In this document: positions 21,588 to 64,000 of the stretch, piece by piece | How positions within the stretch are numbered: position 1 is the stretch's first letter | Layout of the letters: the number at the start of each line of letters is the position of its first letter | Assembly: GCA_011390165.1 (NCBI GenBank) | Contig: JAABSV010000004.1 | Coordinates: forward strand, 62,001-126,000 | Direction of reading: 5' to 3' | DNA length: 64,000 nucleotides | Source of the DNA: Desulfobulbaceae bacterium | GTDB taxonomy: Bacteria; Desulfobacterota; Desulfobulbia; Desulfobulbales; Desulfocapsaceae | Position numbers and translations under genes: made by a program | Notes under the pieces: generated by a model | What the model saw: only the letters and a program-made list of their open reading frames with translations | What the model was told of the DNA's origin: nothing | Database searches by the model: none

Positions 21588-24500
21588 TCAAGGCCCGAGA
21601 AATTCGGAAAGTCTCTTTGCTATCTCGATTACGTGGGGCCTGTCCATGATGGTCGCGTGGCTGGCTGTGAGGGCCACTGTGGTCAACTCGCCGCGCACCA
21701 GTTGCCGCCAGCCCCGGTCCGGGTCGATCTCCTTCGACCCGACACCGGCGGTACACAGCAGTACCGGGCAGTCGAGTTCGGCGGGCCGATAGGCCTCTAG
21801 GGCGGCGCTGTTCTGCCTGAAGAGATGGAAGCGGCGAACCAGGTCGTCCAGAGGCAGCCCCGGCGGCAGCAACCGTTGGTCGGTGGCCAGACGAAGAATA
21901 CGGGCCAGCACGGCCCTGCTGGAGAGCCCTTTGCCAACCAATTTTCGCCAGCCCCGGCCGGCCGACAGCTGTCGCCCGACCCCAAGGTCGGTGGCAAAGT
22001 CGAGAAGGGCGGCTAGTTCCGGGTTTCCTCCGGCGCCACCGGTTCGGGCCAAATGAAGCGATTGTACCATATCGGCCAGTATCCCGGGAGAGTAACTGTC
22101 AAAGAGGGCCAGGAAAGTAACCTCCCTGCCCCGTGCCGCCAACTGTCTCGCCATCTCCCAGGCGACCACCCCGCCCAGGGACCAGCCCCCCAACTGTACC
22201 GGCCCGGTCGGCTGCACCCCTTCCAGCGCCTGGAGGTAGAGGGAGGCCAGCCCCTCAACGGTGCCGGGGTGTTCTCTTTCACTGCCAGGTTCGATCCCCG
22301 GCGACTGCAGGGCGTAGAAGGGGTGGCCGGCGGGAAAGACCCCGGCCAGCTGCTGATAGACCTGCACCGAGCCCCCCACTGGGTGGACGCAGAAAAATGG
22401 TCTCATCCCCCCTTCCGGGCGGAGGGGTACCAGTGGCGACCAGCTGCCGGCCGGCACCTCTGCCCCGGACGAGGCGAGCAGGGCGGCCTGGGCGGCAACG
22501 GTGGGTGCCTGGTAGAGCTGGGCCAGGGTAAGCCGGCGGGCAAATCTTTTTTCCATCGCCGCCAGCAATCGCACCGCCAGCAGAGAGTGGCCGCCGCAGT
22601 CGAAGAAACTCTCCCCGACACCCGGTTGCCGACCCGGCAGGAGCTGCCGCCAGAGGGCCAGCAGCTCCTCTTCCAGTTGGTTGCCCGGCTCCTGGCGGTG
22701 GAGATCGGTCTCGCCGACAACCGCCATCTTCTGCAGGGCCTGCCGGTCCACCTTGCCCCCTGCCGCCACCGGCAGTCGGGGGAGAAAGACAAAGGCGGCT
22801 GGCACCATATGTTCCGGCAACTGCCGGCGCAGGGACTGTCGCAGGCTGCCACTGGCCACCCTCTGCCCCCCCGGTTCGGCAACCAGATAGGCGATGAGAC
22901 TGTCGACCGGGCGGGCCCCTTGGCCGCCCGCTCCCCTTTCTCCATCCCCCTCCGCCACCGCCACCACCGCCGCCTGGGCAACCCCTGCAAGGGCGGTGAG
23001 CAGCGCCTCGATTTCGCCGCACTCCACCCGATACCCCCGCACCTTCACCTGCTGGTCGAGCCGGCCGAGAAACTCCAGGTTGCCATCGGCCAGCCAGCGG
23101 CCGCGATCACCGCTGCGGTAGAGCCGTTCGCCGACGGCAAAGGGGTCGGGGAGAAATTTTTCGGCAGTCAGTGCCGGCTGGTGGAGGTAGCCAATGGCCA
23201 GACCGGCGCCGCCGAGATAGAGTTCCCCCGCCACCCCGATCGGGCAGAGCTGGCCAGAGCTATCAAGAATGGTGACCGTGGCGTGGGGCAACGGCCGGCC
23301 GATGGGCACCGGCGGCGGCGTGGCCGGCACCACCTCACCATCCTTGCGGGCCCCCGCCGGCACCGGGTAGAGGGTGGTGGTGATGGTCGCCTCGGTGGGG
23401 CCGTAGGCGTTGTACAGATCGGCCCCGCTGAGGGAGCTTTGCCGCCAGCGACCGACCGTCGTGGCGGGAAGCGGCTCGCCACCGCTGATGAGCAGACGAA
23501 GAGCAGGAAGGGCACTGCCGGCGGCCTCGCCCTCCCCTTGCAGCAGTTCGTCGAGATAGGCCGGTGGCAGGTCGACAATGGTGACCGCCTGCCGGCGAAG
23601 CAGTTGACGAAAGCGCGGCACCGGCTGCAACCGCTCTTTTGGGATGACCACTGTCGCCCCGGAGAGAAGGGCGGGGAAGATCTGTTCCAGGGCGGTATCG
23701 ACCCCCGGTGGGGCGAACTGGCAGATACGGTCAGCGGCGGTGAGGGCAAAGGCCCGGGCGATGGTCTGGCAGTGGCAGGCGAAGGCGGCATGGGAGACCA
23801 GGACCCCTTTTGCGGTGCCGGTACTTCCCGAGGTATGGATACAATAGGCCGGGTCGTCGCCGATAGGAGATGGCCCCTCCCGGTCCCTTCCCAGCTCCCC
23901 CTCCCCGTCCCCCTCAGCCGCTGGCTCTACCTTGCACTCTTCGACAGCCAGCAACCGACAGCTGCTGCCCGCCGCACACCCGGCCACTCTTTGGTAATGG
24001 GGGCGGTCGGTGAGCAGGAGCGTGCTGCCGCTGTCGGCGACAATCCGGCCGATGCGGGCGATGGGTGTCTCCGGGTCGATGGGGAGCAGCACCCCGCCGG
24101 CAGTGAAAATGGCCAGCATCGCCGCCACCATCGCCGGGCAGGCTGGCAGGCAGAGGGCGACCGGCTGCCCGGCGGCCATCCCCTCATTGTGCAGGAAGGC
24201 GGCCAATTGCCGGGCGTGGTCGGCCAGTTGCCGGTAGGTCACCGCTTCCGCTCCGTACAGCAGGGCCGTGGCGGTCGGCCTGGCGGCCGCCTGCCGGGCA
24301 AAAAGCTCGGAGACCACCCTCTTGTCGGCGGCAGCCACCCTCCCCCGGTTGCCGAAGGCGTACAGGCGCTCAATCTCCTGCCGCCCCAGGGGACTGAAGG
24401 CGGCAATGGGCCGACCGGGTTCTGCCACCACCGCCGCTGCCAGCCGTTGGAAGTGGTCGAGGTAGCGGGCAATGGTCTCCTCGGCAAAGAGCTCAGGACG

Positions 24501-27210: not shown

Positions 27211-30200
27211 TGGAATGGCCGGGTCGGATCGGGGCCGGGCCCCCGGCCGGCGGCGGGGAGAGCGTCCAATCGGCCGCCGGCCGCCACTGCCGAAAGAGCG
27301 CCCGGCTCCGCTGCACGTGCCTGCACCAGCGCTGCCAGGCGGGCGATACTGTTGTCGCCGACCAGATCGACCAGCTGGATGGTCAGATTATAGCGCTCGT
27401 TGACCGCAGCGAGCAGACGCATGCTCATCAGCGAGTCGAGGCCAAGGGCACTGAAACTGCTCTCCGGATCGAGTTCTTCCCGCCGGTGGCCGGTGATGGC
27501 GCTGACAGTTTCGCCAAGAAAGGCGGCAACGGCGGCGGCAACGGAATCGAAACCGGTATCAGAACCAGGATCGGAACCGGTATCGGAACCAGGATCGGAA
27601 CCGGCATCGGAACCAGGATCGGAGCCGGCATCGGAACCAGGATCGGAACCGGCATCGGAACCGGCATCGGAACGTGTGCCGGTACCTGCATCGGAAAGTG
27701 TTTTGGAACTGGTGTCGGAACGGCTATCGGCCGGCTCAGCCACCGACGACTCGAGAGTCCCGGCCATGGGCGGCAGTGCACACGGCCGCCGGGCAAAGGG
27801 GTAACCCGGCAGCTCGAGGGGAAGGGCTCTGTCGGCCGGGAGATTCGGGGTAATGTTTTCGCCATAACGGTAAGCTGCCGCCAGGGCGTGGAGCCCCTCT
27901 GCCTCGCCACCCCCTGCCGAGGCTTTCGGGTCTACCGGCCAAGAATCGGGTGCGCCGGGCAAAGGCCCCTCGACAGCCAACAGGGCGGCCAAACGGTCGA
28001 TCAGCTCATCGCGACTGGCCACCACCAGGGCGCAACGGTGGGGAAAGTGGTCCCGACGGTGAAGGAGGTTGGCGGCGAGGCGCTCAAGATCGAACGCATC
28101 CCGTTCCGAACGGGCCTCCTGCCCCGCCACCAAATCCCCTTCCAGACTCCCTTCCAGACTCCCTTCCGGACTCCCTTCCGGACTCCCTTCCGGACTCCCT
28201 TCCGAATACCCTTCCAGATACCTTTTCAGCTCGAGGAGCCGCCGGCGCAGGGCCTCCTCACTCTTCGCCGAGAGGGCAATCAGCACCGCCGGCGAGGGTG
28301 GTGCTCCCGGCCGCCGGCCACACTTCGGGGGGGGAGAGGCGAGAACCAGGTGTACATTGATGCCGGTGGTCGAGGTGGAGCTGACCGTGGCCCGCCGTAT
28401 CCCCCGCTCCCCTTCGCCCTCAACGGCCGGCCAGGGGATATTCTCACGATTGACGAAAAATGGGCTGTCGGCCAGCTCCATTGCCGGGTTGGCCTCGACC
28501 AAATGGGGGGTCACCGGGATGGTCCGATGGCGCAGGGCGAGGAGCACTTTCAGAAGATGGCCCATCCCGGAGGCGGCGAAGGCGTGGCCGATGTTGTTTT
28601 CGACACTACCGAGGAGACAGAAGCGCCGCCGCCCGGTGTAACCCCGGAAGGCCCTGGTCAGGGCCTGAACCTCCATCAGATCGCCGAGGGGGGTACCACC
28701 GGCACTGGCCTCCACCAGGCCGATATTGGCCGGGTCGATGCCATGCCGGGCATAGACCGCCCTGTAGAGCCGCTCCTGCGCTTTGACACTGGGGGCCGCC
28801 ATACCGTTGGTCCGGCCATTGTGGCTGCTGCCCCACCCCTCGATCACCGCATCGATCCGGTCACCGTCGGCAACCGCCTGCGCCAGCGGCTTCAGCACCA
28901 CCACCGCCACAACCTCCCCCGGCAACATCCCCCGGGCTCCGACATCGAGGGCGCCGCGGTGTTCCCGGCCGCCATACTCCGGACAGAAGAGCCCGGCCTG
29001 GCCGCCGGCCAGAAGCAGATTGGCGGTGGAGTAGACCATCACCCCGCCGGCCAGGGCCGCCTCGCAGTTGCCGAGAAGAAGCTGGTCACAGGCCTGGGCC
29101 ACCGCCAGGAGGGCCGAGGCGCAGCCAGCATCCACCGTCTGGCAGGGGCCGGTCAGGTTGAGGCTGAAGGAGACCCGGCCGGGAATGCCGGAACCGGTGA
29201 CGTGTGGGGAGACGCCAGTCACCTCCCGCAACCGCAGGCCATGGTCACCCCCCCCGCCACAGAAGACGCCCCAAGGGCGACCGGTGAGGCTTTCCGGGCC
29301 GATACCGGCATTTTCCAGGGCGTGCCAGGCCTCCTGGAGAAAGAGGCGTTCGGCCGGGTCGAGAAGTGCCGCTTCAACCGGCGAGATGTGAAAGAAGAGC
29401 GGATCAAAGAGGTCGATCCCCTGCAGAAAACCGCCGTGGCGAAGGGTCAGGGCCTGTCCGGCCGCCGTTTTCCCCAGCGGCGCGGCCAGCTCCCAGCCGC
29501 GGTCCACCGGCAAGGGGGTGAAGGCGGCCTGTCCGCTCAGAAGAAGCTGCCAGAAACCGGCAAGGTCGGTCGCGCCCGGGAAGCGGCCGGCAGCCCCGAT
29601 GATGGCGATTTTGCCGGCATACGATGATGCGAGGGGCGATGCCGGCGTGGATGCGGGGCCATCGCCCCCCTTGCCGGTGGCCCGGCTCGACTCGGACGGG
29701 CTTAGGGTCCGCAGGATCAGCCGACAGAGTTCCTCCTGCGCCTCCCGGCCATGGAGAAGATCAAAGTGGTTGTTGCCCGCCACCGGTACGGTTTGCAGCT
29801 GCGGCAAAAGCCGGTGCCAGCCGGCAAAAAAGGGTGCCAGCCCCCCCCGTTCCCTCTGCACCCTCTCCAGATAGGCCGGGGTGAAGGCGGCCTCGGCAGT
29901 GGCGCTGGCGCTCTCACTGCGGAGGAGGAAGGCGGCCAGTTCCGGCTGGGGGAGGGAGACGGCCCGATAGCGGCGCAGGGCGGCGAGGTTGGCGAGATGG
30001 ACCCTGGCCATCGACTCCAGCCGCTCAAGAAGGATTCTCTTCTCCTGGCCGACGCCACGTCCGGCGATCAACTCCACCAGACGGGCGGAGATGGCCGAGG
30101 CCGGTGCCTGCTGCCAGGGGGTGTCGAGATCGGCGAGCTCATCGGCGGTGAGCACCAACTCTTTCCAAACGACCCTGCCCTCCTCCTTCAGCCGGCGAAA

Positions 30201-33200
30201 CCGGGGGTCGAGGTGGAGCAGGGTGATCAGCAGAAAATTGGCGTTGATCAGCCAGTTCTCCCCTGCATCAATCCGCCACAGCCGACCATCCTCGGACGAT
30301 TCGATAAGGGGGGCCTCAATCAGGAAAAGCCCCTGCATCGCCATCCCCCGGAGCTGCAGCTGCCGGGCGGTCTCGTAGGCCAGAGTCCCTCCCAGGGAGG
30401 AGCCGAGCAGCCCGCAAGGCCCTTCCGGGCGCACGGCGGCGATGATCTCGGCATAGTGGGAGGCCATCGCCGGCAGAGAGCTGAGCGGGGTGGAAGGCTG
30501 CCGGCTGAGAAAGCCCCGGGCACGGATGCCAAGCAGCCGGAAACGCTCCCCGGCCGCCTCGGCAAGGGGGTTGTAAAGACCGACATCACCGGACATCGGG
30601 TGGAAACAAAAGAGCAGCGGCCCCTCCCCGGCCACCTGCAGGGGAATCAGCTCCGGATAGTACCGGCCGAGGCGGCCGAGGCGCTGGCGCAGGCCATCTC
30701 GTCCCTCAGTTGCCCTCTCTGCAGCTGTACCCGCCAAATCCAACCGAGGCTTATCGGACCGAAGCTGATCGGACAGAGGCTGATCGGACCAGGGCGACGC
30801 AGGCTGCGGCGGCAAGGCTGCCGGTGCCGCCAAACGAACCGGCAGCACATGGAGACCCTCGTTGCTCTGTTGGAGATGGTCGGCCAGCTCAGCGATGGAG
30901 GGGTAGTCGAAGACCAGGGTCTCACGCAGGGGACGGCCCAGCTCCGCCGACAACCGGCCGATAAAGCGGACCACATGGAGCGAATCAAGGCCCAGCTCGA
31001 GAAAGGTGGCCGATTCGTCCACTTCGTCTTCTTCGGCAATACAGAGAATCTCCCGCACCTGTTTGACCAGCAGAGGGCGGAGGACACCCTCCTCGCCGCC
31101 TCCCAAACCATCGTCCGGCCGGCCGGGATACCGACGCGGTTCGGCCCGCTCCTGCCGCCCTTCGACACAGAGGTCCGACTGGTCTGATTGCTCTGATTGC
31201 TCTGATTGCACTGATTGCTCTGATTGGTGAGATTGCTCTGGTTGCTCTGACGGCTCTGCTCCGCCCCGGCCCGGCCCCTCACCATACCAGAAGTGGCGGC
31301 GGGCGAAGGGGTAGGTGGGCAGCGGGCAGCGCGGCGGCGGCTGGGGGTAGAGGTCCTGCCAGGCAATGGCATTGACGCCCTGCAGCCAGCACCGGGCCAG
31401 GCTCTCCAGGTCGGCGGTGGCCACCGCCTTGCCGATCGGCGTACCCACCCCTCCGGACACTTCGCCCTGCCCCTGCTGCCGGCGCCCCTGGATATCACGG
31501 CTGTCACTGCTCCACACTGCCGCCACCGCCCGCCGCTCAAGCCAGGCTTGCAGTGAGGCCACCAGCTGCTGCCGGTTACCGGCTACTATCGCCAGCCGAT
31601 GGCGCATCGCCTCTCTCCCCACCTGCAGGGTATAGGCCAGGGAGGCCAGCGAGGGAAGAGGCTCTTCGCCTGCCTCCAGAAAGGCGAGAAGGTTGCCGGC
31701 AGCCTGGCGGAGCTGCCCGCCGGTGCGGGCCGAGAGGAGAATCAGCACCTCAGCCTCGGCGGCTTTCTGGAATGGTGTCGGTCTTGCCTCCGGGCGATAT
31801 TCGGCCACCACCATTGCCGCGGCGGAGCCGCCCGCCCCCACCGAGTTGATCAGGACATTGCGACCTGCGCCACCCCTCCCCGGCTCCGGCCATGGCTCCA
31901 CCTGGCAGACCAGGCGCAGCCGGCCGGTCGCCTCGCGCAGGGCCGGGACCAGCCGTTCCGGGCGGACCAGGGTCGGCGCCAGGGTACGGTGCTGCAGTTG
32001 CCAGAGAACCTTGCTCAGCTGGGCCATCCCCGCCGTTGCCTCGAGGTGGCCGATATTCGCCTTCACCGTGCCGAGGGGGATGGGATTGGGGGCACCCGTC
32101 TCGGCCTGGAAGAGTTGCTGCAGGGCCGCCAGTTCCACCGCATCACCCATTGCCGAACCGTTGGCCGCCGCCTCGATGTAGTCCACCTCCGCCGGGGCGA
32201 TGGCAGCCCGCTGCAGCACGGTGCGGAGCAGCTCCCGCTGCTGTCCGACGTCGGGGGCGGTGTAGCTCAGGCCCCTGCCGCCGTGGCTGATCGCCGTCGC
32301 CCGGATTACCCCCCTGATCTGGTCGCCGTCCGCCTCCGCCGCGGCAAGGGGCTTGAGGAGAATAGCCCCGACCCCCTCGCCGGGGAGGAAACCTCGACCG
32401 CTCTCGGCAAAGCAGTGGCATTCGCCCTCATCGCTGACCATCCCGGCCAGCGAGAGGTCGATGAAGGTACGGGGGTGGAGGTAGAGGTTGGCCGACCCGA
32501 CGATGGCCAGACGGCACTCGCCGCGGTGGATGTGGGCACAGGCCTCATGGATGGCGGTGAGTGCCGAAGAGCACATGGTGTCGATGGCCAGGCTTGGACC
32601 GGTCAGGTTGAGCTGGAAGGAGACCCGGTTGGCCATACTGCTGAACGAGGTCGAGGGGAGCCTGGCCCTGGCCGGCTCGCCATCGAGGCGGCTGTGCAGA
32701 ACAAAACCGGTCTTGGTTACGCCGATAAAGACCCCCACCGAGCGGTTATAGCGCTCGGCCAGAGTCGACGGCGCATAGCCGCCATCCTCCATCGCCTGCC
32801 AACAAGTGGTAAGCAGCAATCGTTCCTGGGGGTCGATATGGAGAGCGTCCACCGGGGAGATAGTAAAGAAGAGCGGATCAAACTCGGCGAAGCCATCGAG
32901 AAAGCCACCATGCTTGCAGGCACTGAGCAGGCGGCGGCCGGCCTCCTCCCGCCCCTGATGGTAAAAACCGGCCAGGGGCCACCGTTGCGGAGGAATCTCG
33001 GTAATGGTGCAGCGGCCGGCGAGCAGGTTCCGCCAGTAGGCCGGCAGGTCAGGGGCGCCGGGGTAGCGGCCGGCGATGCCGATGATGGCGATGGGTTCAA
33101 ATCGGGCCTCGCCCGGGACCAGCTGGCCGGCTCGGCCCGGGGTCAGCGGACGTTCTTGCGCCGGACGCCCACTTTCCTCACCCGCCACCACCCCGCCGGG

Positions 33201-54200: not shown

Positions 54201-54926
54201 CCCGGGCAGTTCCAGCTGCGGCAGTTCCCCGGCCAGTTCCCGGCGCCAGAAGGCGAGCCGCCTCTCTCCCTCCCGGCCGGCCAGCAGACGTCTCTCGTAG
54301 TCGACAAAGTCGCGGAAACGGCCGACGGGCGGAGGGGGGGGCGGGGGTGGTACCGCCTCCCCCCTTTCCCTCTGCCGGCGTAACATGGTGTAGGCGGAGG
54401 ACAGGGAGGCGAGCAGAAGCGGCAGGGAGGCACCGTCAAAGAGCAGATGGTGGATGGTGAAGAGGAAGAGAGGCCGCCCCCCGTCTATCTGGAAGATCTC
54501 CGCCCGCAACAGTGGCCCCCCGGCGGCAAAGGGGCGCCTGGCCCGTTGGCGGACCAGGTCGAACAGCTCCTCCTCCCCTTTGCGGGCAAGGCGCACCTCG
54601 GTACAGTCCAGTTCCGCCTCCGGGTGCAGCGTCCGCCAGGGGCCGCGCTGGTCACTGTCGATCCGCGAGGTGAGGAGAGGGTAGGTGCGCAGCAGCATCC
54701 CGGCCGCCTCACGAAGCAGCCCGGGCTCGATCTCTTCCGGCAGGCGGAAGCAGATGGGCAGGTTGTAGATGCTGCTGGCCGGGAAGGTTTTCTGCAGGGC
54801 CCACAGCCCCTTCTGCCCTTCGGAGAGCGGCAGCCGGGCCGCCGGTTGACGCAACTCGATCAGGCCTGCCTTGAGTTGGGCCAGGGAGATATCCCCGGAC
54901 TTGTACCGGCGAAAGAGCTTATCCAT
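21588..54926 (-). CDS. Giant trans-AT PKS/NRPS hybrid synthase (11,112 residues, PKS-B)
   Basis: A single uninterrupted frame of 33.3 kb encoding a protein of roughly 1.2 MDa. Domain order: C-A-PCP / KS-KR-cMT-ACP / KS-KR-ACP / KS-KR'-cMT-ACP / KS-KR-ACP / KS0-ACP-TE / KS0-ACP / C-C-A-PCP-TE. No acyltransferase domain occurs anywhere, and post-KS linkers of the LPxYPFARE type follow the ketosynthases, as expected for a trans-AT enzyme. The start is the ATG at 54926 (MDKLFRRYKSG), with GGGGA 6 nt upstream and an 8-nt overlap with the stop of PKS-A; an upstream in-frame start at 54968 would add 14 residues inside PKS-A. It takes a polyketide chain from PKS-A, adds glycine, extends by four ketide units, passes two non-elongating stations and one more amino acid, and releases the product. 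Module entries follow. Confidence 0.95.
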   Translation of the reverse strand: MDKLFRRYKSGDISLAQLKAGLIELRQPAARLPLSEGQKGLWALQKTFPASSIYNLPICFRLPEEIEPGLLREAAGMLLRTYPLLTSRIDSDQRGPWRTLHPEAELDCTEVRLARKGEEELFDLVRQRARRPFAAGGPLLRAEIFQIDGGRPLFLFTIHHLLFDGASLPLLLASLSSAYTMLRRQRERGEAVPPPPPPPPVGRFRDFVDYERRLLAGREGERRLAFWRRELAGELPQLELPGGRSRSADLSAPVGASRRLLLPTALSCRLRAFCRQHNLFPSTLFLALFKGVLSYSCSVSDIVVGMPVNERSAAGLAEVVGFCLNMVAVRSRIRPEESFAGFLARLQATMLDAVAHSYPLPALLRQLALPGRVDRPLFQAAFAYQNFSPAPTSAGQLPLELIDEIGQEGEYELVLEVQERQDSFQLKVKYLPELLDQAAIDRFLGHILSLLAQVLANPAMTFAEICPLVPAEREQLLQAGHGGDTPLSDDCLHTLFGRQARRQPTAVAAVGGGVSLSYGELDQQSTLLARALQGKGVGPGALVAVCAERSPAMLVGLLAILKSGAAYVPLDPGYPVDRLAGMLKESGARLLLSSGGVVEKVAAVAHRAELTVRALQGAESTAGELLLVALDRDWPLLAEEAARQGELRPVAGNGHLAYVIFTSGSTGRPKGVMVAHRALTNFLLAMAREPGMQAGEKLLALTTCSFDIAALELFLPLVVGGECHIAPAGLAGNPVELQQEIERLRPELLQATPTTWTMLFHTGWRNRQGVRLLCGGEPLPPSLLQAFRASGSRAWNLYGPTEATIWVSLQRLDRDGLISVGRPIANSRLYLLNRHLRPVPVGVVGEICLAGCCLAEGYLHQPELTAEKFVHLQRAEDLGRADGERLYRTGDLARWREDGSIEYLGRVDEQIKLRGMRIELAEIEAALQAFSGVRQAVVVVKGEGGGGRLVACLVPADSGDGIDLTALSRTLRRQLPDFMVPGQFSLLDRLPLTANGKMDRRALAAQELTLVGPQAGVATPKEEGEAVPVAAERLPAGLPAPDSKMVQTVLAGWREVLEQNEIALDQGFWEAGGNSLLAVLLADRLSALLGRPLPVTTLFKYPTVRALSAHLGERLPVAPVLPAGEEGPPRNRPGLAAAAHDGASDWPDYYRESLAIIGISCHFPESKDYRQFWRNLCAGRDCATEFTPEELRRAGVPAELCLNPAYVARQCTLGESKYLFDAGFFNISAANARLMDPQGRQLLQHAWTALEDAGYRPGDIADTGVFVSAGNNFYHAPLQNSGTAAGTDHYVGWVLAQEGSLATQISYHLGLTGPSYAVHANCSSSLIGLHAAGQHLRLGEVRCALVGAASLFPTAAAGYLYQPGMNFSSDGRCRPFAAEADGMVGGEGVAVVVLKRALDAIADGDHIYALIRGVGVNNDGADKMGYYAPGVNGQAGVIGGLLRRTGVDPQSIGYVEAHGTATALGDPVEVRALSEAWRPFTSKTQFCALGSVKSNIGHLDTAAGLAGCIKVALCLQQGQIPPSLYCHHPNPAIDFADSPFYPVDQLRPWPSGMAPRRAGLSAFGLGGTNAHAILEEYVAPLAAPDAESDRRPVLLLLSARDEQRLRQYAGKLLAYLDEGAVAEGDLVAMAATLQLGRKAMAARLGLLAGTISEAAERLRAFLAAASPGRPLPSVVRNDGVMSGPGPAGRELSSLFADDALQEVIGRWLRNRRLEKLLELWVKGVDIDWSPLYPAGRPRRLSLPTYPFAEEEYRLDSPGGGIGGGCGGESGGESGGDSCGNSCGNSGGDRAVAPETPPEGLAKGRGEESNASLLAPVWKRLAVPAGPTAASWPKKTAAVLVVGGDDRQLSALTALYPQATSLGLPHDASLASFQAAVARVDTLDHLVFLAPPDPPAAGEAGGSVSTADEELLLAQEGGVIALFRLVKALLAAGWGEKPLGWTIITRGVQAIAADEAVRPAHAAVHGFARAMAGEFTAPTWSIRCLDLAADEEWPLADLLAIPPAADGSPLVCRGGEWFRQALIPCRDFSPATGGYRRHGVYVVVGGAGGLGEVWTRYMLTRFQARVFWLGRREMNEELRARLRQLAELAVASGAPAPEYLQADGRRPAELARAVATVRERCESVTMNTDEGADGGAGEGGERRTRGSGGQIHGLILAAVDLYDQSLQLMDEERFRAILSVKIEASVRVVNAFAGEELDFILFFSSLSAFGEAAGLSGYAAGCSFADLYARQLATSRRLPAKVINWGYWRVGSGARVAETMKRRLQLSGIRPIEEGEGMAALESLLALPLSQLALLKSAGSPGWDASGDIGMAQPLTTAIDPSAVPPTVSPISPPVDPLQAGESKAEPTEWLSLAPAAEPPLPPLLALSPADTARADEGGLFAVSSRYQTAEEGHDGEKLLALGREVERLSRQLLASAMAGLTVESVAEGYRLWWQESERRLQEEDDSGAGLPAAADLATTGRHQEPVVEGEELWRQWRTAVAALPAAAAGGRAALTLLERCLRALPAVLRGEVAATEVLFPGGSAELVAGMYRHTPIADYFNTLLAELVARAVAQWCQRQPRAAIRIIEVGAGTGATTAALLPRLLPYAANIAVYCSSDISPAFVQAAAERHGRDFPWHCARLFDLERPVGEQQSSGREMGHYDIAVAANVLHATADIRRSLRNLKALLRPGGLLFLNEMSTVSLLSHLTFGLLDGWWSAVDRPLRLPGSPALTPAAWRRVLAQEGFAPVLFPAVADHHAGLQLVVGQSDGLVRQEAGRPAAGRARPGDDGLHGLHSQHGLHGLHSLDGQKRGGERAPQQDQPVLQPEQLATPPAVDGTAAKADGLTAAVAGWLRRTLAELLRVAPATLATDLPFADYGIDSILSINLVNRLNSELGVKLNTATLFDHSTIQRLTAHLLAGHRQLLQARFATPPSSARQAGRGPEMVVNRPEIDVAQQVRPATGKPQPLTLATGAPGGARQPQGQAAARPAEIAVIGMSGQFPGAANVRELWRNLLAGRNGVGPLPPEYLGPPGEKSYRWGGILADRDCFDPLFFHISPREAESMNRHQRLVLQEGWRALEDAGYDPKSLAGSRTGITIGAEPCGSSHETFTGASEALVASRLSYFLDLKGPALVVNTGCSSSGVAIHLACESLRSGETDLALAGGVFAVMDHLGLAALAEIGMLSPTGRCNSFAADADGTVLSEGVGVVVLKRLAEAEADGDRILGVIQGSGMNQDGASNGITAPSGLAQEDLIVEVYRRFAVDPQTISYLEAHGTGTVLGDPVEGNALVRAFRRFTERQNFCAVGSSKAHLGHTGAAAAVVGLIVLLLAMEHRRLPGLPRLRRRNPLIEFDSSPFFLPRQEQEWSGAGRGPLVAALNSFGHSGTNVHLVLRSYQHRQEWAASKAALSSRPQLLPLSAMNRARLQQLAADLADFFTAPAAAAETDGAVAAPLPAESGPAFGLADLAYTLQVGRQAMAARLLLVVSELAQVVAALRAFAAGRELPAYAWYGEVSEDGDGEHGEPGAEQKEMLALWARGDDIGLAELAAYWVGGGVIDWLQGYPTGRPRRLSLPAYPFARERYRGQGRRVGPAGPLFGAIAATEGTGAIGEIAATEATGTVLAGVSSAPASVILCGRHWYESPAAVPAAAALAATAPPVATAGGFARRLVLLAGFGPEGEQLAVQIALALSGGNAETAGSAVVDCQVLSGGEGNGETDPPPPFTRLVNRALQLLQRLLAERLVGRLLVQILWRGDHPAGGYAALAALLKTARLEHPDLFGQIIDVGGKGASSARRENSDRRENSDKKENSHKRENSTEGESSVLSALLAENSHHPGELEIRYKEGKRLLAGWQELQPPVAADIPWRQGGVYLLTGGAGGLGMLLAREIAGRLGSGVVVLAGRSPAPQLPDFGRLNRLGGPQRGEAVVLPVAEGSGVRLEYRQADVANLAEVEALLADIGRCHGPLNGIVHAAGVLADSFILKKTEKQLVQVFAPKVRGAVNLDLASRGLALDFFLLFSSTAAVFGSIGQADYAAANAFLDHFARRRNRLQAMGERTGHTLSINWPLWQEGGMRPEAATVADMAAHGLLPLSSSAGFRALGQAFALAQAGRIGQVLVLAGDPERVRQLLSPDRSGPVAAGLERRLVRRLRALLAETIHIEPDRIDPRAPLERYGIDSIMITRLNQRLSAHFATLPKTLFFEYPNITSLAARLLLAYPEEVRLWLAAGEEGADRENLVGTAVPSIRPLQPIQTAQPAQPDQSPQPCRPSPSPSDGGPEAIAIIGLSGRYAGADNPAALWRQLAAGRDSISEIPPSRWPLAGFYEAEMESALRQGKSYSKWGSFLDDFAAFDPFFFHISPKEAINIDPQERVMLECAWEAFEDAGYTRELLAGRHNSQVGVFVGITKTGYNLYGPELWRRGETIFPHTSFASLANRISYVMGLQGPSMPIDTMCSSSLTAIHEACQHLLRQECELALAGGVNLYLHPSSYILLSAMKMLARGGQCRSFGKGADGFVPGEGVGAVLLKPLSLALRDRDHIYALIRSSAINHGGRTNGYTVPNPAAQAALVRRTLERAGVDARTVSYIEAHGTGTELGDPIEIAGLNQAFRADTTANGFCAIGSIKSNLGHLEAAAGIAGLTKIILQLQHRQLVPTLHATEPNPHIDFAGSPFVLQQELAPWPGAEVEEEGGWRRYPRRAGISSFGAGGANAHLLVEEYSPPAEGEGPGAGQPAAGRQEERSDPEFFLLSAGDPERLRAVAGRLLAWLEEKHGAKEEGLRLADIAWTLQTGREALEERLAFVASTLVATIAALKQFLAGKGDGVDLYRGRRSREAAALIELLGSDLAERCRHWLREGNCGAILELWVKGGDIPWADLPRRQEPRRISLPTYPFAREQFWPPVLDREKGRDSGLAGEAITSIGGAAGAGGIEACGQRQEAMAGDERGELPFTAIARWREEPLSPLAGGDPAAGSVLLVYPPSAGQLAEELASWHRRKGLAVRRLRLVTELTTGLALCLDEASTIWPADRQGVDALLQTMTFPQRLFFLADGQGAESRQKGWAAVAGLRHYAERNELLLLRLYNALRRAGRQEAIDCFVLSRDNYRLGTVAGVAGSSVDTVEPHGGGLTGLACALAQGDHRFRIRNIDLCGSELGDPGGLPELAAMIATEPAAPRGEVVKLRFGRRYRRCFTPLPLAELPASGLRQGGTYLILGGSGVVGQVVTRGLIDTYRARVVWIGRTAADEPALQAKLAAYPEELMPVYYQADVTSPAAIGAAVAAIVGRFSEIHGAIFAGLHFALTEPGEAIDEEEFSRILAVKSQGSGNFAAALATQRLDFICYFSSAQAFSFSGAARMPAYASAITAADTLVAALVAIPPSVTPSATHSAIPLTTPPAPHTTTPLGSINWGFWRASFSAGVPNPNISWLEDRQGFACFERFTAALRAERLEQLLCMQLSGPVAAMVPTDGDNRFRLAPTAPPLPFLWPELRRLLGEEEGRLRASQPLLEAAARWSTAFDGWLARGLYRQWRRLLHEAGIDPEPGSPALGAEEELRQRVGVLDSYRRWWHECCRVLVAHGYLRRSPAGLELGVEEGMPAASPDGDSWLPAEEALAGELQARRQASLPSGEVSAALALAESCLHQLPEILKGPVAATSVLFPRASLEQVAPLYGHGAAGGDDEEQGGANLFPELVARVAAAAVGARQAVEPSTRIRVVEIGAGTGATTAVLLPRLAAMQPQPAEYCYTDISAAFLRHGARQFAGRFPFLTCRHWDIEDPDPLAAVGEGFDLAIATNVLHATASIRDSLRHIKAVLRGNGLLLITEASARSLFSTLTFGLLDGWWRYRDPELRIAGTPLLAPTTWQRLLLEEGFAPLLFPAEEMVGLGQSLIVAVSDGLLATRSPFPAPAPASAADRPAATNLATKPATNPAKLTTSLPASSSSSSSPAPAVAEASSGRRLTAILLASLAEALETDIDRLDPEIPFADYGLDSILGVAFVDRLNRHLGLTLSTAILFEYSTVQSLAGYLLTLGPPPSPGGRGEGEPARHLPMSPAADAAAFAARPGESSLAFPASPDSSTTPTTGRASTEAIEAIEAIEAIEGIAVIGMAGQFPGATDIHAFWANLRDGREGIGPLPPEYLRDPLRPEMRVADPCSRGGVLEERACFDPLFFHISPKEAEAMNPHQRLILQEGWKALEDAGINPKSLANNLVSIYIGAEPSGYAHDSFTGASDALIAARLAYFLNLKGEAVVVNTGCSSSAVAIHLACTSLRQRESELALAGGVFACLSQPMLQGLAGIGMLSPTGRCTPFDAAADGTLMAEGVGVVVLKRLSAAIADGDPIYGVIRASGQNQDGASNGITAPSGTAQEELLVRVYRRFAVNPAAISYFEAHGTATQLGDPVEINAAQRAFRQFTERKQYCTLGTAKANIGHTAAAAGVIGLIKILLAMQHRQIPGLPGFRQGHPAIAWSDSPFTINRELVAWPSAERAPLLAALSSFGHSGTNVHLVVEDYRPPAADALSPAGGELPQLIPISAKNEARLRESVNRLSGFLRLANESGQSIALADLAWTLQSGRQPMAARVVFLADQHDALLSAMARFFAGEKAGEGYWQGEVHGAGEGEWSEEAKVLLDHWLAGGRYERIAAGWVRGVPVAWERLHAARPPKRLHLPGYPFARERYWAEPTLLAGPAVPPMPPAPHTAMAATQSGETAAASLPLIGRPVWQEQPAGEPGDGSGTAVAFAGHWLFWVQPPAGMSASSGPVWQEGELAAAAADLLPGVVCGQLESGAVHADEYFTDIACQLFHRLKEILAGPPAARRLLQVVVVEPGETGQGAEENQGLLFSTLSGLAGLLRTVPRENPALATQLLVLPAPGDRAGLLQLLRRVAENSRHPEDGQARYRQGRRQILAWREITGEQQEKAPPQLPLRPGGVYLLSGGTGGLGRLVARAIARQVEGPTLVLVGRSPLAAADEMGQPAWLQELAALGARVVVHQADIGEWAAVQALFARIEADCGSLHGIIHAAGVVADNYLLRKSEEEFRRVLAPKVAGVVNLDRASSRLPLDFFVLFSSLSAISGNPGQGDYNCANAFLDSYAAHRQQLVDRGLARGRTLSLNWPYWREGGMRLDPARQNELAESHGVAPLSTSAGLAALARGLAGPYPQVMVLAGDPQRLRAAWSNGEAGRPVAVLGVEEETLRPAFRRRLAGLIGEGIKLSPAMIGADEPLESYGIDSITVNGLNRQLAVVFQEIPKTLFYQYRTLAELADYFLAHHRPACEAWTFPGGVVAGEESGRPAQERPLTPGRAGQLVPGEARFEPIAIIGIAGRYPGAPDLPAYWRNLLAGRCTITEIPPQRWPLAGFYHQGREEAGRRLLSACKHGGFLDGFAEFDPLFFTISPVDALHIDPQERLLLTTCWQAMEDGGYAPSTLAERYNRSVGVFIGVTKTGFVLHSRLDGEPARARLPSTSFSSMANRVSFQLNLTGPSLAIDTMCSSALTAIHEACAHIHRGECRLAIVGSANLYLHPRTFIDLSLAGMVSDEGECHCFAESGRGFLPGEGVGAILLKPLAAAEADGDQIRGVIRATAISHGGRGLSYTAPDVGQQRELLRTVLQRAAIAPAEVDYIEAAANGSAMGDAVELAALQQLFQAETGAPNPIPLGTVKANIGHLEATAGMAQLSKVLWQLQHRTLAPTLVRPERLVPALREATGRLRLVCQVEPWPEPGRGGAGRNVLINSVGAGGSAAAMVVAEYRPEARPTPFQKAAEAEVLILLSARTGGQLRQAAGNLLAFLEAGEEPLPSLASLAYTLQVGREAMRHRLAIVAGNRQQLVASLQAWLERRAVAAVWSSDSRDIQGRRQQGQGEVSGGVGTPIGKAVATADLESLARCWLQGVNAIAWQDLYPQPPPRCPLPTYPFARRHFWYGEGPGRGGAEPSEQPEQSHQSEQSVQSEQSEQSDQSDLCVEGRQERAEPRRYPGRPDDGLGGGEEGVLRPLLVKQVREILCIAEEDEVDESATFLELGLDSLHVVRFIGRLSAELGRPLRETLVFDYPSIAELADHLQQSNEGLHVLPVRLAAPAALPPQPASPWSDQPLSDQLRSDKPRLDLAGTAAERATEGRDGLRQRLGRLGRYYPELIPLQVAGEGPLLFCFHPMSGDVGLYNPLAEAAGERFRLLGIRARGFLSRQPSTPLSSLPAMASHYAEIIAAVRPEGPCGLLGSSLGGTLAYETARQLQLRGMAMQGLFLIEAPLIESSEDGRLWRIDAGENWLINANFLLITLLHLDPRFRRLKEEGRVVWKELVLTADELADLDTPWQQAPASAISARLVELIAGRGVGQEKRILLERLESMARVHLANLAALRRYRAVSLPQPELAAFLLRSESASATAEAAFTPAYLERVQRERGGLAPFFAGWHRLLPQLQTVPVAGNNHFDLLHGREAQEELCRLILRTLSPSESSRATGKGGDGPASTPASPLASSYAGKIAIIGAAGRFPGATDLAGFWQLLLSGQAAFTPLPVDRGWELAAPLGKTAAGQALTLRHGGFLQGIDLFDPLFFHISPVEAALLDPAERLFLQEAWHALENAGIGPESLTGRPWGVFCGGGGDHGLRLREVTGVSPHVTGSGIPGRVSFSLNLTGPCQTVDAGCASALLAVAQACDQLLLGNCEAALAGGVMVYSTANLLLAGGQAGLFCPEYGGREHRGALDVGARGMLPGEVVAVVVLKPLAQAVADGDRIDAVIEGWGSSHNGRTNGMAAPSVKAQERLYRAVYARHGIDPANIGLVEASAGGTPLGDLMEVQALTRAFRGYTGRRRFCLLGSVENNIGHAFAASGMGHLLKVLLALRHRTIPVTPHLVEANPAMELADSPFFVNRENIPWPAVEGEGERGIRRATVSSTSTTGINVHLVLASPPPKCGRRPGAPPSPAVLIALSAKSEEALRRRLLELKRYLEGYSEGSPEGSPEGSPEGSLEGSLEGDLVAGQEARSERDAFDLERLAANLLHRRDHFPHRCALVVASRDELIDRLAALLAVEGPLPGAPDSWPVDPKASAGGGEAEGLHALAAAYRYGENITPNLPADRALPLELPGYPFARRPCALPPMAGTLESSVAEPADSRSDTSSKTLSDAGTGTRSDAGSDAGSDPGSDAGSDPGSDAGSDPGSDTGSDPGSDTGFDSVAAAVAAFLGETVSAITGHRREELDPESSFSALGLDSLMSMRLLAAVNERYNLTIQLVDLVGDNSIARLAALVQARAAEPGALSAVAAGGRLDALPAAGRGPGPDPTRPFQAGRQIPGPLLAPLSREQRRLLALPAGEEGSAWNILHIFTLPSELAEPTLLQRAMAVVASSQDILRTCYQPLDGGWAQLVLPAVAVPVHPLALPDLEGAPRFLAGERRRQFTLTEAPLLRLWCWREEEHGYLALVAHHSIADAYTPGLLLDQLLAAARSLQQGEEPSPPVVGEQYWQYALSQFADEGRQAASRQFWQTMLAPAEKGLKGATGLDQAMRLPWKSDPATLSPEQLGAAGGALHAMPDDGYRAMAAFCRDTGSTPAQLFTTAIAILLVHGMDNSQAMVQLVNNQRLRSGLQRTLGEFTNILLLPFTVGELDPGLPVAGLLAKVRGKMLACLEHARVDFAELLNLAELGSYQEYSRRLIDVVVNCTALDGAAGADRLLAAEELAEEMSGGDAGPAPATLWFQAIAGQGRLHLVTSYRRHLFAASEIDFLSTLVLDLVAAMVEHPKKTLAALLARHHRQIERLRGLVRPVAIAKKSRTDAGIPLSEGQKGLWVLQRLAPETTAYNIPLLLRLHRPLALETLRAAGEYLLRSEPILQTAFAVEASQPAGEPFQQLRPDRPLTIRQHSLAGLNGEGVRRRLLALAKEPFSLEEEPLVRLHLISAQEDLLLIVAHHIIFDGTSLQIFVSQLISACTALARGAQLPEPAAAAPPLYHQFIAAEERLLAGQRGQEMLAYWQRQLAGELPSLALPYDRPGTLPPQSGGATRVLSLPPALSAGLHRLAAAQGVSLTVLLLALYTILLHRYSGQEEMVVGLPSQGRWDHRFATAIGYFVNTLPIRTTIDRSLPLPAYLRQLALLVAAALDHAAYPFRRLVSDLALFAGRDQTTALPAIFVLHQLDRPPFTVNGEAQSSTKKGGAVSEDHTLLVSDCSAEFALHQEGDCDLALEVVVGGDEIRLHLSYRPELFAEETIARYLDHFQRLAAAVVAEPGRPIAAFSPLGRQEIERLYAFGNRGRVAAADKRVVSELFARQAAARPTATALLYGAEAVTYRQLADHARQLAAFLHNEGMAAGQPVALCLPACPAMVAAMLAIFTAGGVLLPIDPETPIARIGRIVADSGSTLLLTDRPHYQRVAGCAAGSSCRLLAVEECKVEPAAEGDGEGELGRDREGPSPIGDDPAYCIHTSGSTGTAKGVLVSHAAFACHCQTIARAFALTAADRICQFAPPGVDTALEQIFPALLSGATVVIPKERLQPVPRFRQLLRRQAVTIVDLPPAYLDELLQGEGEAAGSALPALRLLISGGEPLPATTVGRWRQSSLSGADLYNAYGPTEATITTTLYPVPAGARKDGEVVPATPPPVPIGRPLPHATVTILDSSGQLCPIGVAGELYLGGAGLAIGYLHQPALTAEKFLPDPFAVGERLYRSGDRGRWLADGNLEFLGRLDQQVKVRGYRVECGEIEALLTALAGVAQAAVVAVAEGDGERGAGGQGARPVDSLIAYLVAEPGGQRVASGSLRQSLRRQLPEHMVPAAFVFLPRLPVAAGGKVDRQALQKMAVVGETDLHRQEPGNQLEEELLALWRQLLPGRQPGVGESFFDCGGHSLLAVRLLAAMEKRFARRLTLAQLYQAPTVAAQAALLASSGAEVPAGSWSPLVPLRPEGGMRPFFCVHPVGGSVQVYQQLAGVFPAGHPFYALQSPGIEPGSEREHPGTVEGLASLYLQALEGVQPTGPVQLGGWSLGGVVAWEMARQLAARGREVTFLALFDSYSPGILADMVQSLHLARTGGAGGNPELAALLDFATDLGVGRQLSAGRGWRKLVGKGLSSRAVLARILRLATDQRLLPPGLPLDDLVRRFHLFRQNSAALEAYRPAELDCPVLLCTAGVGSKEIDPDRGWRQLVRGELTTVALTASHATIMDRPHVIEIAKRLSEFLGP
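27550..27680 (-). repeat. 12-nt tandem repeat in linker before ACP of module 7
   Basis: About ten copies of a unit close to ATCGGAACCAGG on the plus strand. In frame it encodes a SDAG/SDPG/SDTG run, an acidic flexible linker. Confidence 0.9.
28133..28216 (-). repeat. 12-nt tandem repeat in post-KS linker of module 7
   Basis: Six to seven copies of a unit close to GACTCCCTTCCG. In frame it encodes EGSP/EGSL repeats. Confidence 0.9.
29690..33095 (-). other. PKS-B module 6: KS0-ACP-TE (internal thioesterase)
   Basis: The KS (from about 7279) keeps the Cys (DTMCSSAL near 7452) and the last His (ANIGHLEATAG), but HGTGT reads AANGSA, so the first catalytic His is lost and chain extension is not expected. 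The ACP serine is near 7982 in LGLDSLH. An alpha/beta-hydrolase thioesterase follows, with GSSLGG (Ser near 8177) and the His in NNHFDLLHG near 8387; the position of the catalytic Asp holds Glu. About 2,700 residues of synthase still follow. Confidence 0.88.
31180..31257 (-). repeat. 9-nt tandem repeat in linker before ACP of module 6
   Basis: About eight copies of a unit close to TCTGATTGC. In frame it encodes EQS/DQS repeats. Confidence 0.9.
33230..36730 (-). other. PKS-B module 5: KS-KR-ACP
   Basis: The KS (from about 6068) has NTGCSSSA with Cys near 6223, EAHGTAT and ANIGHTAAAAG. The KR (GGTGGLG near 6895; DYNCANAF; Asp in HAAGVVAD) looks active and B type. The ACP serine is near 7194 in SYGIDS. 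It closely resembles module 3. Confidence 0.88.
36726..36770 (-). repeat. 9-nt tandem repeat directly before KS of module 5
   Basis: Five copies of CTCAATTGC (one with a G). In frame it encodes EAIEAIEAIEAIEG immediately before the KS start IAVIGMAG. Confidence 0.92.
36950..42170 (-). other. PKS-B module 4: KS-KR'-cMT-ACP with atypical KR
   Basis: The KS (from about 4256) has DTMCSSSL with Cys near 4429, EAHGTGT and SNLGHLEAAAG. The KR near 5180 has GGSGVVG in place of GGAGGLG, lacks the stereo-diagnostic Asp (IFAGLHFAL) and has YASAITA where the other active KRs have YAAANAF or YAAG. A proline/threonine-rich insertion sits in its C-terminal part. The cMT has IGAGTGATTA near 5683. The ACP serine is near 5958 in DYGLDS. 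Reduction in this module is doubtful. Confidence 0.85.
42350..46020 (-). other. PKS-B module 3: KS-KR-ACP
   Basis: The KS (from about 2970) has NTGCSSSG with Cys near 3118, EAHGTGT and AHLGHTGAAA. The KR (GGAGGLG near 3848; Tyr and Asn in DYAAANAF; diagnostic Asp in HAAGVLAD) looks active and of the B type. The ACP serine is near 4154 in RYGIDS. Expected product: beta-hydroxy unit. Confidence 0.88.
43546..43617 (-). repeat. 18-nt tandem repeat in the KR region of module 3
   Basis: Four copies of a unit close to CTGTTCTCCCTTCTGTCG. In frame it encodes RRENSD/KKENSH repeats, a charged insertion in the KR structural subdomain. Confidence 0.92.
46573..46617 (-). repeat. 9-nt tandem repeat between cMT and ACP of module 2
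   Basis: Five copies of a unit close to CCATGCAGG. In frame it encodes HGL/HSL-type repeats. Confidence 0.88.
49571..49654 (-). repeat. 12-nt tandem repeat in post-KS linker of module 2
   Basis: Seven copies of a unit close to AACTATTGCCGC. In frame it encodes a Gly/Ser/Cys/Asn-rich run (GGES, GGDS, CGNS). Confidence 0.9.
51590..54880 (-). other. PKS-B module 1: C-A(Gly)-PCP
   Basis: The condensation domain (about residues 20-450) has the intact motif HHLLFDG near residue 159. The adenylation domain (about 487-1008) has YVIFTSGSTGRPKG. Aligning it by eye to GrsA gives the specificity residues D-I-L-Q-L-G-L-I-W-K, the established glycine code. The PCP serine is near residue 1075 in GGNSLLAV. 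This module should join the polyketide from PKS-A to glycine by an amide bond. Confidence 0.9.
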
Positions 54927-57900
54927 GGTAGATCCCCGCCGCGACAAAGGTTGCCACATCCTTCTCATCCACTACCCCGGCTTCAAGGAGGCCGGCCAAC
55001 TCGGCGGCGCTGAGCAGGCTTGTCGGGCCGCCATCGGCTGTACTTCCACCAGCTTTGCCGCCAATGACCGTGCCTTCATCGGCTATGCCGCCAATGACCG
55101 TGCCACCATCGGCTGCGGCATAAGGGATGGGCCTGTTGCTGCCAGCACTGTCGACACCCGGCTCCCGGTCCTCCCCCCCGAGTGGGGAAGCAGCGGCTGC
55201 CTCCCCGCCCGAAGCGAAGGGTGGGAGAGTCTCCGGCGAGCTGTCGGCCAGGTGGGCGGCCAGTTCGTCGATGGTCGGATAATGGAAGGGAAGGGTCGGC
55301 GACAGCTCCTTGCCCAAGATCTCTTCCAGGGAACGGACAAGCTGGACCAGGGCCATGGAGGTGAGGCCGAGGGCAAGAAAGCCACATTCCGGGTCCAACT
55401 CGGCAGCCGGCCGACCGAGAAGGGGGGCGAGCGCCTCCTGCAGCCAGCACCGCCATCTCTCGAGCCGCTCACCCCTCTCGCCCTGGCTACCATCCTCCAG
55501 CAGCTCATTCCTTCCGCTCGAGGCACCATCCTCCGGCCGTTCCTTCTCCCCGCCCAGGGCAACATCCTCCAACCAGAGACGTTCCCTGACAAAGGGGTAG
55601 GTGGGGGCACTGATCCGGTGGGGCTGCCTCTCGCCGTACAGCTGCGCCCAGTCAACCTTCTCCCCCCGCACCCAGGATCGGGCCAGCCGCCGGAGCTGCT
55701 CGCCGCCGTCGCCGACAAGCTCCGAGGGAGGACCGCCGGAACCGGCGGCTGCCGCCGCCCTGTGCACACCGACCCGGCCCCGCCAGCAACTCCCCGGCGG
55801 CAGTTCGGCGTCGTCCAGAAAGGCGGTCAGCAGTTCCGTCAGTTCGCCAAGGGATGCAACCAGCAGGCCCAGCCGTTCGGCCATGGCCTGGCGACCGGTC
55901 TGCAGGGTCCAGGCCAGATCGTCCAGGGGTGTTTCCGGGTTTTTGCCAACAAAGGCCAGCAGCCGCCGGGCCGCGGCACGGAGGACGTCGCCGCTCCTGG
56001 CTGAGAGGGGGATCAGCACCGGCCCCGAAGGCGGCACCAACCGGACTGACGGCGCCGGGGCCTCCTCGATGAGGAGATGGGCGTTGGCGCCGCCAGCCCC
56101 GAAGGCAGAGAGGGCAGCCAGACGCGGGAAGAGCCTCTTTTTGCCTGCCACCAGCAGCTCCGGTTCCTTCCAGGGGGCGAGATGGGGCTGGAGGAAAAAG
56201 GGGGTGTCGGCAAGGTTCATGGCCGGGTTCACCTGATCGGCATAGAGGGCGGGGGCCAGCTGTCGGTGGCGCAACTGGAGGATGATCCTGGTCAGACCGG
56301 CCATGCCGCCGGCCGCCTCCAGATGGCCGAAGTTGGCCTTCACCGAGGCGAGCGGGCACCAGCCGGTGGCTGGACCCTCCTCCTGAAAACTCTCAAAGGC
56401 CTGCCTGAGGGCGGTGATCTCGATCAGATCACCCAGTTCGGTGGCGGTGCCGTGCGCTTCGACAAAGCTGATCTGCCGCGGACTAACCCCGGATCGGAGC
56501 AGAGTTGTGCGGATCAGCTCCTGCTGGGCCTGCGGGTTTGGCGCGGTGTAGCCGCTGCCCATGCCACCGTGGTTCACCTGGCTGCCGCGGATCACCGCAT
56601 GGATATGGTCCCGATCGCGCAGCGCCGCGGCGAGGGGCTTGAGGAGGACCACCCCGACCCCCTCGCCGGGGACAAAGCCGCTCGCCCCTTTGGCAAAACT
56701 GCGGCACTGGTCGCCACTGGCAAGCAGTTTCTGGGCCGCCAGGGCCAGATAGGTGGCCGGGTGGAGGTAGAGGTTGACGCCACCGGCGATGGCCAGGGCA
56801 CAGTTGCCCTGGCGCAGCTGTTCACCGGCCAGGTGGATGGCGGTGAGGGCGGAAGAGCACATGGTGTCCACCGGCATGCTTGGCCCGGCAAGGTCGAGGA
56901 AATAGGATACCCGATTGGCCACCGAAGCAAAGGAGGTGTGGGGAAGGAGCACCGGCCGGGCAGATGACCCGGCCTGGTGGAGGGCAAAACCGGTCTTGGT
57001 GATGCCGGCAAAGACACCGACCTGCCGGTGGTACACCTCCTGCAGGCTCTGCCGGGTATAGCCGGCATCCTCAACCGCCTCCCAGGCGCACTGGAGAAAG
57101 AGCCGCTCCTGGGGGTCCATGGCCCGCGCCTGTTCCCGGGAGATATGGAAAAAATCGGCGTCAAACTCGGCAAATTCAGCCAGGAAGCCCCCCCACTTGC
57201 TCGGGCTCCTCCCCAGAGCGGCGGCGGTCTCCGCATCCGGGTGGAAGAAATTCTCGAGGGGCCAGCGCTCCGGGGGGATCTCTCCGATCACACTCTCACC
57301 GCGGCTGACAATCTGCCAGAACCGGTCGAGATCAGCGGCCTGCGGATACCGGCCACTGAGGCCGATAATGGCAAGAGGTTGCTGCAGCTGCCCTCCCTCC
57401 TCCGACTCCCCATCGCCAGGGCGAACCCTCACCGGTCGTCGTGGCGCAGCTGTCGCTCCTTTTGCCGGCGCCGCAACCGGTACCGCTACCGCAGCCGCTA
57501 CCGCAACCGCTGTCGCACCCCCAGCCACCGCTCCTGCCGTCGCTGGCTCGGCGACTCTTCCGCCGGCTGCAAGCCAATCGACACAGGCCGGGCCATGGCT
57601 GGCAAGAAGTTGTCGCCCCAGAGCACGCAGGCTCTGGTGCTGGTAAAAGATGGTCTTCTCCACCGGCCCGAGGGCCTTTGCCAATTCCTCCCGCAACTGG
57701 GCGAAGATGATCGAATCGATCCCATAACCGGCCAGGGGCTCGTCCACGTCGATCCGTTCCGCCGCCAGACCGATGGTTTGGCCGACCAGTTGCTGCAGGC
57801 GGCAGAGGATGGCGGTGAACAGCTCCTCTTCGGCTACACCCGGTTGGCGCGAAATGTCCGCCGACGCAGGCTCAACTCGGTTGCCGCCAGGGGCATGCTG

Positions 57901-63999: not shown

Positions 64000-64000
64000 T

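Follow-up and report, generated by a model that had tools for sequence, protein, structure and literature searches.

The window analysed here, a stretch of 64,000 nucleotides from a Desulfobulbaceae bacterium (contig JAABSV010000004.1, positions 62,001 to 126,000), contains two giant open reading frames (all of ORF D and most of ORF C) of what appears from its domain content to be a hybrid of a trans-acyltransferase polyketide synthase (trans-AT PKS) and a nonribosomal peptide synthetase (NRPS). We find that interdomain linkers of these megasynthases carry tandem DNA repeats that are mostly in frame, have unrelated unit sequences, and add their own length to otherwise ordinary linkers. A like pattern, with turnover between orthologues, is present in other trans-AT PKSs. 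Probably, the arrays are independently born, in-frame slippage minisatellites that are tolerated in disordered tethers.

Tandem repeats are in frame and concentrated in linkers

An array was defined as a Tandem Repeats Finder (TRF) match with a score of at least 50. The span 27550-57516, which covers parts of both PKS ORFs, holds 14 such arrays, and all of the repeats named in the original prediction (EAI, EQS, SDPG, EGSP, RRENSD, HGL, and GGES) were located by TRF. The period is divisible by three in 12 of the 14, so that the earlier statement that all periods are multiples of three is correct except for a 13-nt and a 20-nt array with only ~2 copies each. Similarly, 11 of the 12 in-frame arrays lie outside catalytic domains, as had been proposed, counting here the EGSP array in a loop of a KS flanking domain (LD); the remaining one is a two-copy match within a KS. 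The idea that each linker is built from its own repeat does not hold, since in-frame arrays were found in only 9 of the 34 linkers of at least 20 aa in the two window ORFs, and in 14 of 60 when two further trans-AT PKS ORFs of the same genome (A and B) are included.

Across these four ORFs, we detected 24 arrays, compared to a mean of 1.6 after codon shuffling in 60-codon blocks (maximum of 5 in 100 shuffles) and 2.4 in 20-codon blocks. This represents a roughly 15-fold excess over the 60-codon shuffles, and it is more pronounced for arrays of at least three copies (9 observed, 0.03 expected). Nineteen of the 24 arrays fall in linkers, whereas 8.9 would be expected, and none of 5000 permutations reached 19. 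The period is divisible by three in 21 of the 24. Among arrays with at least 2.5 copies, 10/10 in the four ORFs are in frame versus 6/18 in intergenic DNA. The units are unrelated and unique to each locus, as originally predicted: the mean pairwise match among 13 units is 0.413, compared to 0.399 for shuffled units.

Background densities, measured over 1.06 of the 3.59 Mb of the genome, show that repeats are denser in this cluster than in ordinary genes. The four PKS ORFs contain 2.90 arrays per 10 kb versus 0.83 in other coding sequences (CDS) (ratio 3.5, P = 2.5e-6). The density is 0.84 when only CDS encoding 1000-3000 aa are counted, and it reaches 4.05 in intergenic DNA (the intergenic total is 27 arrays in the density count and 26 in the frame count, depending on the overlap rule). 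Within the PKS ORFs, domains have 1.0 array per 10 kb, similar to ordinary CDS (P = 0.61), and linkers have 6.3, similar to intergenic DNA (P = 0.15), as expected if linkers are only weakly constrained.

The repeats arose as DNA duplications and lengthen linkers

Because selection by TRF favours DNA identity, the codon test was redone on repeats found in a codon-blind amino-acid search. This search returned 14 amino-acid repeats, with 0.0 expected from local shuffling. Of 165 identical residues, 128 are encoded by matching codons versus 67.6 expected, indicating that the copies arose as DNA duplications. In addition, the SDAG/SDPG array is fitted better by a 24-nt than by a 12-nt period, a higher-order periodicity that looks as if it came from stepwise duplication.

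Linkers between ACP and KS domains have a median length of 80 aa with an array (n = 29) and 56 aa without (n = 222; P = 2e-7). When the array is subtracted, the median falls to 58 aa and the difference disappears (P = 0.84). No difference remained after subtraction for KR-ACP, KS-KR, KS-ACP, and KS-DH linkers (each with at least 7 array-bearing examples) or for ACP-ACP linkers (n = 7); KR-MT linkers, of which only 3 carry an array, still differed (P = 0.017). An array-bearing linker is thus a linker of normal size plus the array itself.

Turnover was compared on orthologues of other clusters, since searches of genomes from the genus, family, and class revealed no homologue of the window cluster. 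There was no close relative in 92 other genomes of the family (best KS identity 39%), and no second genome carrying the cluster among 256 other genomes of the class or among the genus genomes searched. On this evidence, the cluster appears restricted to this species or strain among the genomes compared.

In 19 orthologous ORF pairs, gaps occupy 190 of 902 alignment columns in arrays (21%), 699 of 29391 in other linkers (2.4%, a rate lowered by the inclusion of unmodelled domains in this class), and 23 of 26920 in domains (0.1%). These pairs derive from a set of 20, from which we dropped L109_3/L117_1 as well as L085_0/L087_0, whose upstream translation seems in part not to be coding, and to which we added L064_1/L079_1. 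Array length differs in 37 of 62 comparisons between orthologues, a count in which some arrays recur and the doubtful L085_0 comparisons are included. The clearest case is a 45-nt x3.7 array in L109_1, where the orthologue L105_1 is 54 aa shorter. The sole array shared by L056 and L058, which are 98.9% identical in DNA, is unchanged. Given that this array is unchanged and that differences appear among comparisons at lower identity (37 of 62 overall), arrays seem to turn over slowly compared with the divergence of strains and not in the manner of phase variation, judging from few close pairs. The window arrays presumably vary in copy number as well.

Taken together, the near-identical codons, higher-order periods, additive length, and gain or loss of arrays in orthologues of other clusters give good support to the earlier suggestion that slippage creates linker length. 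Replication slippage, or an equivalent local tandem duplication, would copy short stretches of local coding DNA. Events that are out of frame or that strike folded domains would break the enzyme and be lost, and those that keep the frame and fall in a disordered tether between domains or in a surface loop would be tolerated, probably nearly neutrally, and could persist, expand, gain point changes, and decay. Each array would contribute its own length to a linker that is otherwise ordinary.

Similar arrays occur in other trans-AT PKSs

The pattern is not peculiar to the window cluster. We compared 75 loci encoding trans-AT-type KS domains from named genomes of many phyla (76 sets with the cluster itself; a few overlapping, 100% identical stretches of one contig cause a small double count). 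These loci contain 153 arrays in 1.24 Mb, compared to 30 expected from codon shuffles. At least one array was found in 46 of the 75 loci and none in 29 of the 76 sets, among which the window cluster ranks 9th or 11th by array excess. Strong cases come from Sorangium (L113), Streptomyces (L087, L088), Anaerocolumna/Clostridium (L105, L109, L117), and Thiomargarita (L122).

Over all sets, 139 of 159 linker arrays are in frame. In-frame arrays per 1000 aa are most frequent in ACP-KS linkers (1.93), followed by segments after the LPTYPF motif (1.02) and before ACP domains (0.87), other linkers (0.42, likewise depressed by unmodelled domains), LDs (0.21), and KS cores (0.05). In L095, the LD loop that carries EGSP in the window cluster is occupied by a SQID x3 array of unrelated sequence.

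Structure models predict disorder at several repeats

An AlphaFold2 model beginning at residue 8450 of ORF D (40 aligned sequences, mean predicted local distance difference test score (pLDDT) 73.8) has a fold matching trans-AT ketosynthases such as the bacillaene KS structures. The EGSP array (model residues 470-496) lies between two LD helices, mostly in a segment with pLDDT below 50 (476-508), and the SDPG array (651-693) falls wholly within another such segment ahead of the ACP (594-696). Among the Protein Data Bank sequence matches listed, coverage extends over the KS and ends at ~418-480 (best: 466-474); the EGSP array starts at 470. In a second model (mean pLDDT 78.8), the IAATEGTG repeat is part of a tail with pLDDT below 50. 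The EGSP, SDPG, and IAATEGTG repeats are therefore predicted to be intrinsically disordered, and the models are ambiguous for RRENSD.

Alternative explanations

Several observations weigh against tolerated, independently born slippage as the whole explanation. Linkers hold 18 in-frame arrays in 30 kb and intergenic DNA holds 8 in 66.6 kb, a ~5x difference in density (P = 7e-5). This excess goes beyond what neutrality and a frame filter predict, and selection for length or codon-periodic seeding of in-frame duplications may add to it. Lineage also matters: of seven relatives within the order that have KS-bearing stretches (two of them congeneric and one from the family), six lack arrays and one, G032 (G+C 0.74), has five. 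The RRENSD array has pLDDT values of 55-65 in the second model and forms a partly helical loop of the structural subdomain before the KR, so that it may be helical instead of disordered. Finally, codons are mixed in three arrays (identical in 3/7 cases for HGL, 6/13 for SGN, and 2/6 for SVP), hinting that these are older or were selected at the amino-acid level.

The intergenic comparison also speaks for adaptive tuning, in which slippage supplies variants and selection acts on linker length or flexibility, with arrays improving the reach of the ACP between domains. Arrays do lengthen linkers, and their density is highest in ACP-KS linkers and beside ACPs, where a mobile carrier needs reach. 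However, 46 of the 60 linkers of the same enzymes have no array, 222 of 251 ACP-KS linkers are array-free with a median of 56 aa, and orthologues at ~75-92% identity differ in length, which suggests weak length constraint. We consider such tuning possible but less likely, with a credence of about one in four. Still more speculative is the thought that slippage-prone tethers at recurrent slots (ACP-KS linkers, post-LPTYPF segments, and the flanking-domain loop) might act as a built-in length mutator that re-tunes carrier-protein reach after module recombination, which we regard as doubtful.

Alternatively, linkers could be selected for a low-complexity amino-acid composition, with DNA repeats as a by-product. 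As in flexible linkers, the residues S, G, E, D, P, and A abound in the units, and the three arrays with mixed codons would fit this idea, but the codon identity in the codon-blind search exceeds expectation nearly twofold, making it unlikely as a general account.

The original prediction also raised the possibility that arrays allow module recombination. Several arrays sit 13-50 aa past the LPTYPF motif, and LPTYPFx5W has been proposed as a boundary of natural trans-AT recombination that is usable in engineering (PMC11260071). That work concerns recombination, and the words 'repeat' and 'linker' are absent from its main text. The breakpoint data do not support a role for arrays. We collected 51 internal ends of high-scoring segment pairs (HSPs) among the 75 loci and kept the 36 without continuing similarity, dropping 15 with continuing homology. 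An array is found no more than 20 aa away from two of the 36 mosaic ends, where random placement in linkers would give 1.5 (P = 0.46), and no more than 40 aa away from four, where it would give 2.1 (P = 0.13); of all 51 HSP ends, three are within 20 aa. No recent module copy was found within the cluster, where the longest paralogous segments are at most 74% identical in DNA and mostly end in a KS or LD. Moreover, unrelated units cannot pair with one another, and the densest slot, the ACP-KS linker, is interior to the proposed exchange unit. Arrays as a recombination hotspot were rejected on these grounds, and a role in module exchange is highly improbable.

Chance, G+C-rich composition (67%), or an artefact of the fragmented assembly (108 contigs, so that copy numbers may be collapsed) is the least credible account: codon shuffles in either block size never reached the observed counts, ruling out chance and composition, the repeat copies are diverged and in frame, and like arrays occur in loci of low G+C (0.38-0.41).

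Cluster architecture and genomic context

Table 1. Positions of the megasynthase ORFs, repeat arrays, and internal thioesterase-family domains (window coordinates unless residues are given).
Feature	Position	Strand	Description	Basis
ORF D	21588..54968	-	11126 aa, putative trans-AT PKS-NRPS hybrid; begins with C-A-ACP, followed by six KS modules and a terminal C-C-A-ACP-TE	ORF list and Pfam
ORF C	54919..64000	-	Putative trans-AT PKS; 4406 codons, runs past window to contig end (L027), end open	ORF list and Pfam
SDAG/SDPG array	27546..27673	-	24 nt x5.3 (12-nt base unit); tether from LPGYPF motif to ACP	TRF score 207; within pLDDT<50 stretch
EGSP/EGSL array	28137..28215	-	12 nt x6.6; loop inside KS flanking domain (LD)	TRF score 123
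Internal PF00975 domain	29769-30614 (D residues 8120-8401)	-		Pfam; ends set by eye
SDQPL array	30743..30790	-	15 nt x3.2; ACP-TE linker	TRF score 75
EQS/SEQ array	31183..31258	-	9 nt x8.4; 22 aa past LPTYPF motif	TRF score 103
EAI array	36725..36764	-	9 nt x4.4; ACP-KS linker	TRF score 73
RRENSD array	43536..43619	-	18 nt x4.7; loop of structural subdomain before KR	TRF score 119; pLDDT 55-65, partly helix in model
IAATEGTGAIGE/IAATEATG imperfect 12-aa repeat	44136..44195 (computed from D residues 3593-3612)	-	After LPAYPF	Codon-blind repeat search; pLDDT<50
HGL/HGLHS array	46562..46622	-	9 nt within 27-nt period; MT-ACP linker; degenerate, 3/7 codons identical	TRF score 73
Weak array, 73% matches	49009..49083	-	30 nt x2.5; before KR	TRF score 76
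GGES/CGNS array	49570..49656	-	12 nt x7.2; 16 aa past LPTYPF motif	TRF score 62
TVIGGIADEG array	55052..55114	-	30 nt x2.1; ORF C C-terminal tail after last ACP	TRF score 105
AVAVAAAVAV array	57471..57511	-	18 nt x2.2; ACP-KS linker of ORF C	TRF score 59
CQP array	63556..63584	-	9 nt x3.2; linker before KR of ORF C	TRF score 51
LDGLDRLVGPAGLV array	63657..63699	-	18 nt x2.4; before KR of ORF C	TRF score 58
PF00975 domains on contig C99	A residues 5715-5936; B residues 131-330 (start of ORF B)			Pfam; ends set by eye

The assignment of the cluster as a trans-AT PKS-NRPS hybrid follows from Pfam domain maps of the PKS ORFs, which show C, A, KS, LD, KR, methyltransferase (MT), ACP, and TE domains and no acyltransferase. 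No acyltransferase domain was found in any Pfam-scanned piece of ORF D, and no AT family was matched in any of the 27 scanned pieces. The four ORFs contain 16 KS domains (one split match counted once), most of them followed by RhiE-like or CurL-like linker families, and 13 LPxYPF motifs. The split match is in ORF B, where a Gly/Glu-rich insertion of ~40 aa (residues ~737-775; L031) interrupts the N-terminal half of a KS.

ORFs A (7336 codons) and B (3614 codons, open) are located at the end of contig C99. Both this contig and C42 terminate within trans-AT PKS ORFs, with C open at its 5' end and B at its 3' end, and a single cluster of at least 16 KS and more than 26,000 aa spanning the two is therefore possible. 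No exact overlap between the ends of C42 and C99 was found.

Besides the normal C-terminal TE, the assembly line has internal thioesterase-family (PF00975) domains, placed between an ACP and a KS, and another at the start of ORF B (Table 1). Several KS domains have EAAANGS, EASAGGT, or similar in place of the EAHGTGT motif and so lack its His (D residues 7292-7668 and 8454-8821; the KS of ORF A at 2606, 4911, and 6051); these appear to be non-elongating. Directly downstream of ORF D are genes for a serine carboxypeptidase (Peptidase_S10; window 19718-21541) and a methyltransferase (18781-19686), and a perfect 9-bp x4.8 repeat, TGAATCCTT, is found at 18585-18627 between a ferredoxin-type gene and the methyltransferase gene. 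Three arrays are also present in another megasynthase-like ORF, distinct from these, that encodes a KS on contig C19 (L133:13020-20000).

Relation to known repeats and implications

In-frame coding repeats that form disordered segments are of a kind already known (PMC9879509; PMC6821194). According to the work on Borg amino-acid tandem repeats (PMC9879509), those repeats, like the arrays described here, have units divisible by three that are unique per locus and of local origin, and they are disordered and fast evolving. They differ in being perfect at the amino-acid level, genome-wide on an extrachromosomal element, and often in extracellular or membrane proteins, whereas the window arrays are mostly imperfect and concentrated in the tethers of one enzyme class. 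Since most of the window arrays are imperfect, we class them with the wider in-frame coding repeats and not as Borg-type. Work on prokaryotic low-complexity regions (PMC6821194) likewise proposes a slippage-type origin and discusses a linker role; its main text does not contain 'polyketide' or 'nonribosomal', whereas the arrays reported here are mapped to named assembly-line slots. The leuA variable number tandem repeat of Mycobacterium tuberculosis (PMC2704214) is also an in-frame coding tandem repeat in an enzyme, its 57-bp unit being in frame by virtue of its length. It is a single unit in one gene with known polymorphism, in contrast to the many unrelated units within one gene in the window. 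Among open-licence papers, we found none on tandem repeats in trans-AT PKS linkers and none reporting the cross-phylum slot pattern or the additive lengths. The presumed mutational mechanism is an ordinary one with a tidy general consequence.

Those who engineer assembly-line enzymes repeatedly face concerns over how long and how flexible linkers should be, and where the genes contain DNA repeats, the copy numbers in an assembly may not be reliable. The arrays provide natural, recent, and additive changes in length at defined slots. Some orthologues are even distinguished by the presence or absence of an entire array, which amounts to 54 aa in one instance, and such pairs offer ready-made natural experiments on the importance of tether length.

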